IMG/VR virus record: IMGVR_UViG_3300024346_000208 | Span: 1-38,222 of that record | Reading direction: 5' to 3' (one strand) | Source of the DNA: a virus | Length of the DNA: 38,222 bases | Part shown: in pieces, positions 33,671 to 38,076 of the stretch | How the letters are laid out: every line of letters starts with the position of its first letter | How positions within the stretch are numbered: the first letter of the stretch is position 1 | Notes under the pieces: model-generated | Told to the model about the DNA's origin: nothing | The model's database searches: none | What the model saw: only the letters and a program-made list of their open reading frames with translations | Translations under genes and position numbers: made by a program

Positions 33671-33678
33671 CTATTTAG
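33671..33678 (-). promoter_or_regulatory. Late-type promoter box CTAAATAG for the virion block
   Basis: The minus strand reads AACTAAATAGTGTATAGGAG, 20 bases before the first leftward virion gene. It keeps TAAATA of the late pattern but lacks the usual ATA start of the other boxes. From memory, CTAAATA variants have been discussed for cyanophage late promoters. It directly abuts the -35 box of the rightward promoter. Confidence 0.45.
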
Positions 33679-33707
33679 TTGACAAAATTAAGTACGTGTA
33701 TTATAAT
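33679..33707 (+). promoter_or_regulatory. Perfect sigma70-type promoter for gp55
   Basis: TTGACA at 33679-33684 and TATAAT at 33702-33707 are exact consensus boxes with the optimal 17-base spacer. Initiation is expected near 33714, leaving a short leader with GGAG at 33721-33724 before the TTG start at 33731. This is the sort of strong promoter read early by unmodified host polymerase. The -10 lies inside a ten-base palindrome (33699-33708). Confidence 0.85.
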
Positions 33708-33730: not shown

Positions 33731-34579
33731 TTGAGAAAAAGAAATTATCTAAACAACAAAGATATTTTATTAGAAATACACAGATCTAAGAATACTTTTA
33801 ATAGCTATCTAGACAAAGACTTCAACCAGTTTGACATTATTTTACCTAGTGTTGATAAAATTAATAGACTTACTGTTACTGAAGCAAAACGTAATAAAGC
33901 AAAGCGTTTAAGTACCGAAGCATACGAAACAAGACGTATGGCTGGCGAGAAAGTTAAACAAGCACAGTGTGAAGTTCCTTATACAGATATTACAAAAGAA
34001 GAACTAATCTTTCGTGTTATGACATTTGATCATATACCTGAAGAGCCTGGACGTAAAAAGAATCCAAAAACAGTTGCAGATACAAAGACTAAACTTAATT
34101 TTCCACCATTTCAGCATTACAAATATAATGACGAAGGTGAATTAGAGCTAGTAGGCAAAAGTCATTGGGTTGGTGGCATGGAAAATGGACACTTTAGTAA
34201 AGGTCACGGATGTGCTACAAATAAACTAGCAATGATGTGGATGAAACTAGTCGATCGGTATGCTACAAGAGGCAATGTACGTGGATACACTTACAATGAC
34301 GAAATGAAAGGTCAAGCAATCTTGCAGTTATCACAGATTGGTTTACAATTTGACGAATCTAAGTCGAATAACCCATTTGCGTATTACACAGCAGCAGTTA
34401 CTAACAGTTTTGTACGTGTTATTAATATAGAAAAGCGTAATCAAAACATTAGAGACGACATTTTAGAGATGAACGATATGAGCCCAAGTTATACTAGACA
34501 GATGCAAGGCGAATGGGAAGCTGAAGTTAGAAGAAACGAAGAAGCTGCATTTTCATCATTTAAAGAAAAAAATACTTGA
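33731..34579 (+). CDS. 55: Late-transcription sigma factor gp55 with long N-terminal extension
   Basis: This 282-residue protein starts at TTG, chosen because GGAG lies six bases upstream and the promoter directly precedes it. Residues about 165-250 are the gp55 sigma region-2-like core: MMWMKLVDRYATRGNVRGYT, YNDEMKGQAILQLSQIGLQF, NPFAYYTAAVTNSFVRVINI and EKRNQNIRDDIL. gp55 binds host RNA polymerase core and recognises the late -10 element, with the sliding clamp and gp33 helping in T4. T4 gp55 has 185 residues. Here residues 1 to about 150 are extra, with LNNKDILLEIHRSKNTF, IILPSVDKINRLTVTEAKRN and HWVGGMENGHFS. That part may be a separate conserved domain fused on. It probably controls the leftward virion block. 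Confidence 0.92.
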   Translation: MRKRNYLNNKDILLEIHRSKNTFNSYLDKDFNQFDIILPSVDKINRLTVTEAKRNKAKRLSTEAYETRRMAGEKVKQAQCEVPYTDITKEELIFRVMTFDHIPEEPGRKKNPKTVADTKTKLNFPPFQHYKYNDEGELELVGKSHWVGGMENGHFSKGHGCATNKLAMMWMKLVDRYATRGNVRGYTYNDEMKGQAILQLSQIGLQFDESKSNNPFAYYTAAVTNSFVRVINIEKRNQNIRDDILEMNDMSPSYTRQMQGEWEAEVRRNEEAAFSSFKEKNT

Positions 34580-34604
34580 CAGGTGTAAATTTAGACTGTA
34601 TAAT
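34576..34604 (+). promoter_or_regulatory. Perfect sigma70-type promoter for gp47-gp46
   Basis: TTGACA at 34576-34581 and TATAAT at 34599-34604 are exact consensus boxes, again 17 bases apart. The -35 overlaps the stop codon of gp55. Initiation is expected near 34611, with GGAG at 34621-34624 ahead of the TTG start of gp47. It gives the recombination genes a transcript independent of gp55. Confidence 0.85.
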
Positions 34605-34633
34605 TAAACATATTAAATATGGAGTCTAAATTT
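34587..34633 (+). promoter_or_regulatory. 11-bp inverted repeat spanning promoter spacer and gp47 ribosome site
   Basis: AAATTTAGACT at 34587-34597 and AGTCTAAATTT at 34623-34633 are perfect reverse complements 25 bases apart. The left arm is in the -35/-10 spacer. The right arm covers the end of the GGAG ribosome site and the first base of the TTG start codon. Transcripts from the local promoter (start expected near 34611) lack the left arm. Transcripts reading through from the gp55 promoter contain both arms and could fold to hide the ribosome site. A two-fold operator for a DNA-binding protein is the alternative reading. Confidence 0.65.
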
Positions 34634-35646
34634 TGTTTAAAAAAGCAGCAGTATTTACAGATATTCACTTTGGATTAAAAAGTAATAGTCGTGTACACAA
34701 CGACGATTGCGAAGAATTCGTTGACTGGTTTATCGAACAGGCACAAGCTAACGGTTGCGAAACTGGTATCTTCTGCGGTGATTGGCATCACAATAGAAAC
34801 AGTCTAAACTTAACTACAATGGACGCTACTATACGTAGTTTAGAAAAACTAGGTTCTGCATTTGAACAGTTTTTCTTCTTTGACGGTAATCACGATTTGT
34901 ACTATAAAGACAAGCGTGATATCAATTCAACAGCATTTAGCAAGTATATTCCTGGAATAACATTTGTTGACGAAATTACAACTATAGATGATGTAACATT
35001 AGTGCCGTGGTTAGTTGGAGACGAATGGAAACAAGTAAGTAAAATTAAGAGCAAATATATATTTGGTCATTTTGAATTACCTAGTTTCTATATGAATGCT
35101 CTTGTAAAGATGCCTGACCATGGTGACCTTAGAGCAGAACACTTTAAACATCAAGAATATGTGTTTAGTGGACATTTCCACAAAAGACAAAAACAAGGTG
35201 CAATACATTACATCGGTAATGCATTTCCGCACAACTATGCAGACACATGGGACGACGATCGAGGCATGATGATACTTGATCGAGAAAACAACAAAGAGCC
35301 TGAATATTTAAATTGGCCTAATTGTCCCAAGTATCGTACAGTTAAGTTAAGCCAACTCTTAGATAACACAGATACATTAATTAAAAGTAAGATGTACCTT
35401 CGAGTTGAACTTGATTTACCTGTGAGTTACGAAGAGTCAAGTTTTATCAAAGAAGAGTTTATTAATCGATATAACTGTCGTGAAATAACACTAATACCAC
35501 AAAAGCAAGTTGAAGAAATATCAACTAATTTAGATATTTCTAGTTTTGTGAGTGTTGACCAAATTGTTGCAGGTGAAATATCAGAACTTGATACTGACAA
35601 CTATAATAAAAAAATGTTACTAGATATCTATGATGGATTAGAATGA
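34633..35646 (+). CDS. 47: Recombination endonuclease subunit gp47 (Mre11/SbcD-like)
   Basis: This 337-residue protein is near T4 gp47 length (339). All calcineurin-type metallophosphoesterase motifs are visible: FTDIH at residues 8-12, GDWHH at 49-53, GNHD at 85-88, GHFE at 145-148 and GHFH at 180-183. These bind two metal ions and cut DNA. gp47 works with gp46 to resect double-strand ends for recombination-dependent replication and host DNA breakdown. TTG start with GGAG eight bases upstream; no ATG lies near. It has its own consensus promoter and overlaps gp46 by ATGA, so the two subunits are translated together. Confidence 0.95.
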   Translation: MFKKAAVFTDIHFGLKSNSRVHNDDCEEFVDWFIEQAQANGCETGIFCGDWHHNRNSLNLTTMDATIRSLEKLGSAFEQFFFFDGNHDLYYKDKRDINSTAFSKYIPGITFVDEITTIDDVTLVPWLVGDEWKQVSKIKSKYIFGHFELPSFYMNALVKMPDHGDLRAEHFKHQEYVFSGHFHKRQKQGAIHYIGNAFPHNYADTWDDDRGMMILDRENNKEPEYLNWPNCPKYRTVKLSQLLDNTDTLIKSKMYLRVELDLPVSYEESSFIKEEFINRYNCREITLIPQKQVEEISTNLDISSFVSVDQIVAGEISELDTDNYNKKMLLDIYDGLE

Positions 35647-37415
35647 TAAAAATTAAAGACCTTACAGTTAAAAACTTCATGAGTGTTGGTAATCAAACTC
35701 AGGCAGTAGACTTTAACAAAGAACAACTAACATTAGTACTTGGCGAAAATTTAGACCAAGGTGGTGATGACAGCGGATCAAGAAACGGCACTGGTAAAAC
35801 AACTATTATCAATGCACTTTCCTATGCACTTTACGGTCAAGCACTTACTAACATCAAGCGTAATAATCTTATTAATAAGACTAATTCAAAAGGTATGTTA
35901 GTTACACTGCATTTCGAAAAAGCTGGGACCGACTATAGAATTGAACGTGGGCGATCTCCTAATGTATTAAAGTTTTTTGTAGACGATCAAGAACAAGAAA
36001 TGATTGACGAGTCGCAAGGCGATAGTCGTAAGACTCAAGAGTCTATCAACGAGCTACTTGGTATGAGTCACGATATGTTTAAGCATGTTGTAGCACTTAA
36101 CACTTACACAGAGCCGTTCTTATCAATGCGAGCAAATGATCAACGTGCTATTATTGAGCAGTTGCTAGGTATAACAATATTAACTGAAAAAGCAGATGCA
36201 TTAAAAGATCAAGTAAAACTTACTAAAGATGCTATTACACAAGAAACTCTTAAGATTGATGCAATACAAACTGCTAATAGTAAAATTGAAACAACCATTA
36301 AAAGTTTGCAAAGTAATCAAAAGGCATGGCTTTCTAAACGCACTACAGACATTATAAAATTACAAGAAGCAATTGACGAATTAGAACATTTAGATATTGA
36401 ATCTGAATTAGGTCTTCATGAAAAACTGTCAAATTGGACCGAACATAATAATGCTATTTTGGCTCTTAAAAAAGAATTAAGCACATTAGAGCCAGCACTA
36501 GTACGTGCAGACAGGAGTGTTGAAAAAGCACAAAAAGACATCGCAGATTTAGATGATGCAACGTGTTATACATGTGGTCAAGAATTACATGCAGATAAAA
36601 AAGCAGAGATTGCAGAACGTAAATCTAAAGAACTTGAAGATGCTTTATTGTATCAAAAAGAAGTAAGTAGTAAACTTGTTGATGTTACAAAAGCACTAGA
36701 AGACATTGGTGACATTAACGGCAAGCCTACTACATTTTATGAGACTGCAAAAGAAGCATACGAACATAGACAAAACGTTGATAGTTTAAAACAAACATGG
36801 AAATCTAAAAAAGAAGAACAAGATCCTTATCAATCACAAATTGACGAGTTAAATCATAGTGCTATTCAAGTAATAACTTGGGATAGTGTAAATGAACTTA
36901 CAAACTTTAAGGACCACCAAGAATTTTTATTAAAATTGCTAACAAACAAAGATAGTTTTATTCGTAAGAAAATTATTGATCAAAACTTAGCATACCTAAA
37001 CAACAGACTTACATACTACCTTGACAAACTAGGTTTGCCGCATCAAGTTACATTTCAAAATGATTTAAATGTTGAAATTACACAACTAGGGCAAGACTTA
37101 GACTTTGACAACTTGTCACGTGGCGAGCGTAACAGACTTATATTAGGCATGAGTTTTGCATTCCGTGATGTTTGGGAAAGTCTATATCAAGGCGTTAACT
37201 TATTGTTTATTGACGAACTTATAGACAGCGGCATGGACACAGCAGGTGTTGAAAATGCACTAAGTGTCCTTAAGAAAATGGCTAGAGAACGTGATAAGAA
37301 TATCTACTTAATATCTCATAAAGATGAATTAATTGGTAGAGTTAATAATGTAATGAAAGTTGTTAAAGAAAATGGCTTTACTAGTTACGAAAATGATATT
37401 GATATTATAGAATGA
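35643..37415 (+). CDS. 46: Recombination endonuclease subunit gp46 (Rad50/SbcC-like ATPase)
   Basis: This 590-residue protein is close to T4 gp46 (560). The Walker A motif GSRNGTGKTT is at residues 45-54. Two coiled-coil arms (about 165-300 and 320-430) flank a zinc hook, C308-Y-T-C311. The ABC signature LSRGERNRL is near 491-500, Walker B LLFIDELIDSGMD near 519-531, and the H-loop LISHKDE follows. The ATPase heads clamp DNA and power gp47 nuclease action, and the hook joins two molecules. The P-loop is preceded by a GENLDQGGDDS stretch, longer than in T4. The start ATG overlaps the gp47 stop (ATGA), and its own stop overlaps the next start in the same way. Confidence 0.96.
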   Translation: MIKIKDLTVKNFMSVGNQTQAVDFNKEQLTLVLGENLDQGGDDSGSRNGTGKTTIINALSYALYGQALTNIKRNNLINKTNSKGMLVTLHFEKAGTDYRIERGRSPNVLKFFVDDQEQEMIDESQGDSRKTQESINELLGMSHDMFKHVVALNTYTEPFLSMRANDQRAIIEQLLGITILTEKADALKDQVKLTKDAITQETLKIDAIQTANSKIETTIKSLQSNQKAWLSKRTTDIIKLQEAIDELEHLDIESELGLHEKLSNWTEHNNAILALKKELSTLEPALVRADRSVEKAQKDIADLDDATCYTCGQELHADKKAEIAERKSKELEDALLYQKEVSSKLVDVTKALEDIGDINGKPTTFYETAKEAYEHRQNVDSLKQTWKSKKEEQDPYQSQIDELNHSAIQVITWDSVNELTNFKDHQEFLLKLLTNKDSFIRKKIIDQNLAYLNNRLTYYLDKLGLPHQVTFQNDLNVEITQLGQDLDFDNLSRGERNRLILGMSFAFRDVWESLYQGVNLLFIDELIDSGMDTAGVENALSVLKKMARERDKNIYLISHKDELIGRVNNVMKVVKENGFTSYENDIDIIE

Positions 37416-37626: not shown

Positions 37627-38076
37627 ATGCAGTGGACTTATAAAGGTAAAATAATTGACGAAATACCAGATGAGTACGAAGGCTTTGTTTATCTTATTAC
37701 TAACACCACTACAGGCCAAAAATATATAGGTAAAAAACTAGCAAAATTTAAAACTACTAAGCCACCGCTCAAAGGCAGAAAAAATAAACGACGAGGCTAC
37801 AAAGAAAGCGATTGGAGAACTTACTACGGTAGTTCAGATAGACTAAACGCAGATGTAGCAACACTAGGCGAAGACAAGTTTACAAGAGAAATATTATACC
37901 TATGTAAAGGTAGGGGCGAAATGTCCTACATAGAGGCACGAGAGCAGTTTGATAGGCGAGTACTTGAAACAGATGAATACTATAATGGTATTATTAATGT
38001 TAGAGTAGGCGGCTCGGACAAATTAAAACAGGCATTGCTAGAACATCACATACAGGCAAAACATTCCAACACCTAA
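37627..38076 (+). CDS. GIY-YIG nuclease-like protein
   Basis: This 149-residue protein carries a GIY-YIG fold. The paired motif is GFVYLI at 19-24 and KYIGKK at 32-37, followed by a basic loop (KGRKNKRRGYK), SDWRTYYGSS near 61-70 and FTREIL with candidate Arg87. The motif YIEAREQ has candidate metal-binding Glu103, and YYNGIIN has Asn120. The first GIY residues are FVY rather than GIY, a common variant. Phages carry such genes as free-standing homing endonucleases or as repair nucleases. There is no DNA-binding extension here, so a simple nuclease of unknown target is likeliest. It sits eight bases after the preceding gene with only a weak ribosome site, so it is probably read with gp46. The next in-frame ATG is at residue 99, so this start is the only sensible one. 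Confidence 0.85.
   Translation: MQWTYKGKIIDEIPDEYEGFVYLITNTTTGQKYIGKKLAKFKTTKPPLKGRKNKRRGYKESDWRTYYGSSDRLNADVATLGEDKFTREILYLCKGRGEMSYIEAREQFDRRVLETDEYYNGIINVRVGGSDKLKQALLEHHIQAKHSNT

Follow-up and report, generated by a model that had tools for sequence, protein, structure and literature searches.

A lineage-specific hairpin in a marine T4-like phage is predicted to occlude the gp47 start on read-through RNA

Hairpins that mask the ribosome binding site on early read-through RNA have been described for the T4 genes e, soc and 49 and for the intron endonuclease I-TevI; in these cases late genes are preceded by an internal late promoter (PMC3014915; PMC2988022). For mobE of phage Aeh1 a hairpin sequestering the ribosome site has been shown experimentally (PMC2988022 and its refs. 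57-58). The structure of T4 gene e is reported to be kept in close relatives of T4. The gp55-gp47-gp46 locus of a marine T4-like phage analysed here is predicted to share the anatomy of the T4 cases, as a promoter lies between the two arms, the long RNA would mask the ribosome site and local RNA would lack the 5' arm. However, the internal promoter of gp47 is of the sigma70 type and thus shares its class with the promoter upstream, gp47 belongs to the replication/recombination genes, and the hairpin shows no conservation across relatives. Like that of mobE, the predicted gp47 hairpin covers the ribosome site of a gene which is part of a longer transcription unit, whereas mobE is a homing endonuclease gene with a late-promoter logic.

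The window, i.e. the whole stretch of 38,222 nucleotides that was analysed, contains the following features at this locus:

33679-33707, plus strand: sigma70-type promoter of gp55, TTGACA-17-TATAAT, matching the consensus at 12/12 positions
33731-34579, plus strand: gp55, late sigma factor (phrog_12791), putative origin of the read-through RNA, with its stop in the -35 box of gp47
34576-34604, plus strand: sigma70-type promoter of gp47, TTGACA-17-TATAAT, with TTGACA at 34576-34581 and TATAAT at 34599-34604; 12/12 match
34587-34597, plus strand: left arm of the repeat, AAATTTAGACT, within the promoter spacer
34599-34621, plus strand: inner helix extending the stem as predicted by folding, 34599-34602 pairing with 34618-34621 and 34604-34607 with 34613-34616
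34621-34624, plus strand: Shine-Dalgarno sequence GGAG of gp47, assigned from sequence
34623-34633, plus strand: right arm of the repeat, AGTCTAAATTT, beginning with the AG of GGAG and ending on the first T of the TTG codon
34633-35646, plus strand: gp47, SbcD-like (phrog_100), TTG start
35643-37415, plus strand: gp46, SbcC-like (phrog_77)

Since gp55 has its own promoter and no terminator-like site was found between gp55 and gp47, RNA reading through from gp55 into gp47 is plausible. The preliminary description had reported a perfect 11-bp inverted repeat with one arm in the promoter spacer and the other across the ribosome site and start codon of gp47. The repeat is present, and its left arm lies inside the 17-bp spacer between 34576-34581 and 34599-34604. 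The right arm was correctly placed as well, but its extent was overstated, as it takes in the AG alone of GGAG and the first T alone of the TTG codon (34633-34635). Inward extension of the repeat gives arms of 21 nt that are 86% complementary and separated by a gap of 5 nt. In the 38-kb window this is the sole perfect inverted repeat of at least 11 bp with a loop of at most 40. An Rfam search returned a chance match only (E 0.89, 16.5 bits versus a gathering value of 90).

Folding of the long and the short RNA predicted a stable stem for the long one, a hairpin at 34587-34633 with 19 pairs and -14.2 kcal/mol. By MFE and opening cost, defined as the energy needed to open positions -15 to +3 at a gene start, this hairpin is predicted to mask the Shine-Dalgarno sequence and/or the start codon of gp47. 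The opening cost of the gp47 start was 13.5-14.8 kcal/mol when the RNA began at 34587 or further upstream, and 4.6-5.0 kcal/mol with 5' ends at 34598-34612. Local RNA would lack the 5' arm, which ends at 34597, in front of the -10 box. With about 13-15 kcal/mol required on read-through RNA that contains both arms, compared to about 5 kcal/mol on locally started RNA without the left arm, the thermodynamic logic of the earlier proposal holds in folding: the former could fold shut and the latter leaves the ribosome site free. Masking of the gp47 start on read-through RNA and its accessibility on local RNA are therefore well supported as a prediction. Terminating gp55 ribosomes, which would reach about 34589-34590, could open just the outer 3-4 pairs, and truncating the left arm to 34591 still gave an opening cost of 11.8 kcal/mol.

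For comparison with relatives, viral contigs with gp47 and gp55 were scanned and two DNA patterns were used in addition, which yielded 107 further distinct leaders and 108 sequences in all. In 106 of the 107 relatives gp55 lies directly upstream of gp47, the exception (L057) having just 125 upstream bases, and the gp47 promoter spacing is exactly 17 bp in 108/108 sequences with at least 9 of 12 matches each. Conservation of the arms in relatives of the same gene order had been set beforehand as a test of the proposed switch. More than 100 relatives sharing gene order and promoter lack the arms and the hairpin, and among the 108 sequences both arms are complete solely in the near-identical contigs L003, L084 and L086 (99.8-100% DNA identity in gp47), so that the structure is not kept in relatives carrying the gene. 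A sister type, L004 and L085 (gp47 89% identical in protein and 81% in DNA), retains the right arm and AGACTG; its outer left arm is altered without compensation, and 6 outer pairs plus a re-paired inner helix remain. Nucleotide matches in annotated phages fell only inside gp47 (60-80% identity) and were therefore of no use for the leader comparison. As a separate observation, gp47 starts with TTG in 104 of the 108 sequences, with GTG in 4 and with ATG in none, and gp55 of these phages starts with ATG, TTG or GTG; the conserved weak start codon may tune gp47 output.

The preliminary description had transferred the early-read-through logic of T4 e, soc and 49 to gp47, i.e. a selected translational switch which separates gp55 expression from that of gp47-gp46. 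This is rather unlikely in our view. The similar anatomy, with the start masked on the long RNA only, and the part of the stem retained in the sister lineage are consistent with such a switch, but its absence from the relatives with the same genes and promoter argues against it, as does the local promoter. The T4 arrangement of an internal late promoter of the TATAAATA class with early or middle promoters upstream was not found: TATAAATA is absent from the window, [A/C]TAAATA is absent from the gap between gp55 and gp47, and both promoters read TTGACA-17-TATAAT. With the same promoter class locally and upstream there is no temporal difference to exploit.

Block shuffles contained 0.57 perfect inverted repeats (at least 11 bp, loop at most 40) per window. 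The mere existence of the gp47 repeat is therefore unremarkable, and what is unusual is its position. The repeat lies across the start of the only gene that has an internal promoter, and when promoter hexamers and leader were held fixed and the rest of the upstream sequence was shuffled, the occlusion difference of 9.3 kcal/mol at the gp47 start was matched in 2 of 4000 shuffles. Moreover, the opening cost of gp47 is the highest among the 16 gene starts in the window (14.2 vs 2.0-10.4 kcal/mol). These results make it quite improbable that the repeat is a pure coincidence with no effect, the read-through RNA being rare or held open by translating ribosomes, although the shuffled expectation fits this explanation, and hairpins of similar strength, unrelated and at chance level, occur in the relatives L078 and L173.

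Whether occlusion is a property of the family was addressed by a swap test in which each leader's own upstream part was compared with the upstream parts of other relatives, promoter and composition being kept. The mean z was 0.14 +/- 0.14 for 81 non-redundant leaders (0.06 +/- 0.17 in a first run with 54 leaders). Without the window and L004 it was 0.04 +/- 0.12 for 79 relatives, which corresponds to no family-wide occlusion signal, and 4 of these 79 passed p<0.05, as chance predicts, which is in line with pure coincidence. Hence, there is no family-wide switch. The window's own leader beat all 80 swapped leaders (z 5.2), and L004 showed the second-largest difference in opening cost (7.7 kcal/mol, z 2.35). 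In simulations placing seven substitutions at random from the window sequence, the occlusion level of L004 was kept in 4.8%; its retention is a weak hint of selection within one lineage (p about 0.05). Covariation was considered as support for the hairpin and discounted. On a 26-row alignment of relatives the score was reached by 0/500 column shuffles, but a control slid by +2 was nearly equal (0.151 vs 0.158), the window structure pairs 53% of the cells, and RNAalifold predicted no common structure.

A DNA operator in which the arms are dimeric repressor sites flanking the promoter core is very improbable, since the arms do flank the -10 box and start region but their sequence is not conserved in relatives, and the window's other copies with one mismatch, which fall within genes, show no clear enrichment (6 vs 3.0 expected). 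An attenuator or terminator hairpin acting on read-through transcription can hardly be assumed either, as the stem, though followed by UGUUU, is AT-rich with a long and interrupted loop, has no U-run and was not called as a terminator.

We moderately favour a lineage-specific occluding hairpin in this marine T4-like phage which would dampen the translation of gp47 on read-through RNA and need not have been selected. As judged from the sequence, transcription of gp47-gp46 would depend mainly on the sigma70-type promoter that lies between gp55 and gp47 and is strongly conserved, and the resulting leader of about 20 nt would leave the start site open. Only in this phage lineage does the promoter spacer appear to have become complementary to the stretch from the Shine-Dalgarno sequence to the start codon. 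Transcripts that come from the gp55 promoter and read through could form the 19-pair hairpin over the gp47 start, and locally started RNA could not form it. As a likely effect, gp47 would be translated less from read-through RNA. Since the two promoters belong to one class, the hairpin would insulate one gene from upstream transcription rather than act as an early/late timer.

Protection from external transcription is known for the transposase of IS10 and IS50, where folding covers the ribosome site on read-through RNA but not on RNA started at the internal sigma70-type promoter. The principle is alike and requires no timing difference, and the gp47 hairpin, if acting, is closer to IS10/IS50. 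In contrast to gp47, IS10 and IS50 are mobile elements with terminal inverted sequences, and there is no relation by descent. Given the more than 100 relatives without it, the hairpin is probably a local peculiarity and not a genetic switch under conservation, and between selection and drift in AT-rich DNA we lean towards an incidental or minor role. The stem remnant in L004 and L085, kept as rarely as it was in the simulations, leaves room for a lineage-specific function. That a same-class hairpin switch of T4 style evolved in one marine T4-like lineage, with an antisense arm encoded in the spacer and gp47-gp46 answering only to their own promoter and ignoring gp55 read-through, we consider unlikely. 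If functional, the hairpin would mean that phages use masking of the ribosome binding site on read-through RNA to insulate genes of the same promoter class and not just to delay late genes, and it would be a young, lineage-specific case useful for understanding how such switches arise. The comparison also illustrates that repeats spanning a promoter in AT-rich phage DNA readily resemble switches.

The pattern at the gp55 promoter is stronger than that of the gp47 hairpin. It was counted in the window and 55 further loci (15 non-redundant at 80%). The 12-mer TATTTAGTTGAC (window 33672-33684), which reads GTCAACTAAATA on the opposite strand, is invariant at 56/56 gp55 loci with varying flanks. 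At all 56 loci the gp55 -35 box overlaps the divergent late-promoter motif ACTAAATA on the minus strand, and a minus-strand ORF starts 11-24 nt downstream of the motif. In the late-promoter variant of Aeh1, a/gC replaces TA at -13/-12 (PMC2988020), and ACTAAATA fits this variant. It appears that the -35 box in the late sigma factor's own promoter is also part of a divergent late promoter. By means of this shared box gp55-RNAP could turn off gp55 transcription, which suggests mutual exclusion of early gp55 transcription and gp55-dependent late transcription.

Further motifs were observed at other promoters. In the window, [A/C]TAAATA late-promoter-like motifs occur upstream of 4 of 11 minus-strand genes (ends 2076, 6686, 25863 and 33651), compared to 0.016 expected per gene. 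In the gp47 promoters of relatives the -10 box is often palindromic with the part of the leader that directly precedes the Shine-Dalgarno sequence (TATACTT-N4-AAGTATA), e.g. in L005, L010, L023, L029 and L135, the version in L029 being TATACTATT/AATAGTATG. This palindrome ends before the Shine-Dalgarno sequence, is only weakly above UTR shuffles (z 0.36 +/- 0.14, from related sequences) and may serve as an operator or, next to the Shine-Dalgarno sequence, as a read-through hairpin. Besides, many relatives show a palindrome that spans the -35 box at the spacer start of this promoter, reading TTGACAGGTGTCAA or TTGACA-NN-TGTTAA. Downstream of gp46 the window carries a SegE-type GIY-YIG endonuclease-like gene at 37627-38076 (Pfam PF19835, E 6.4e-36).
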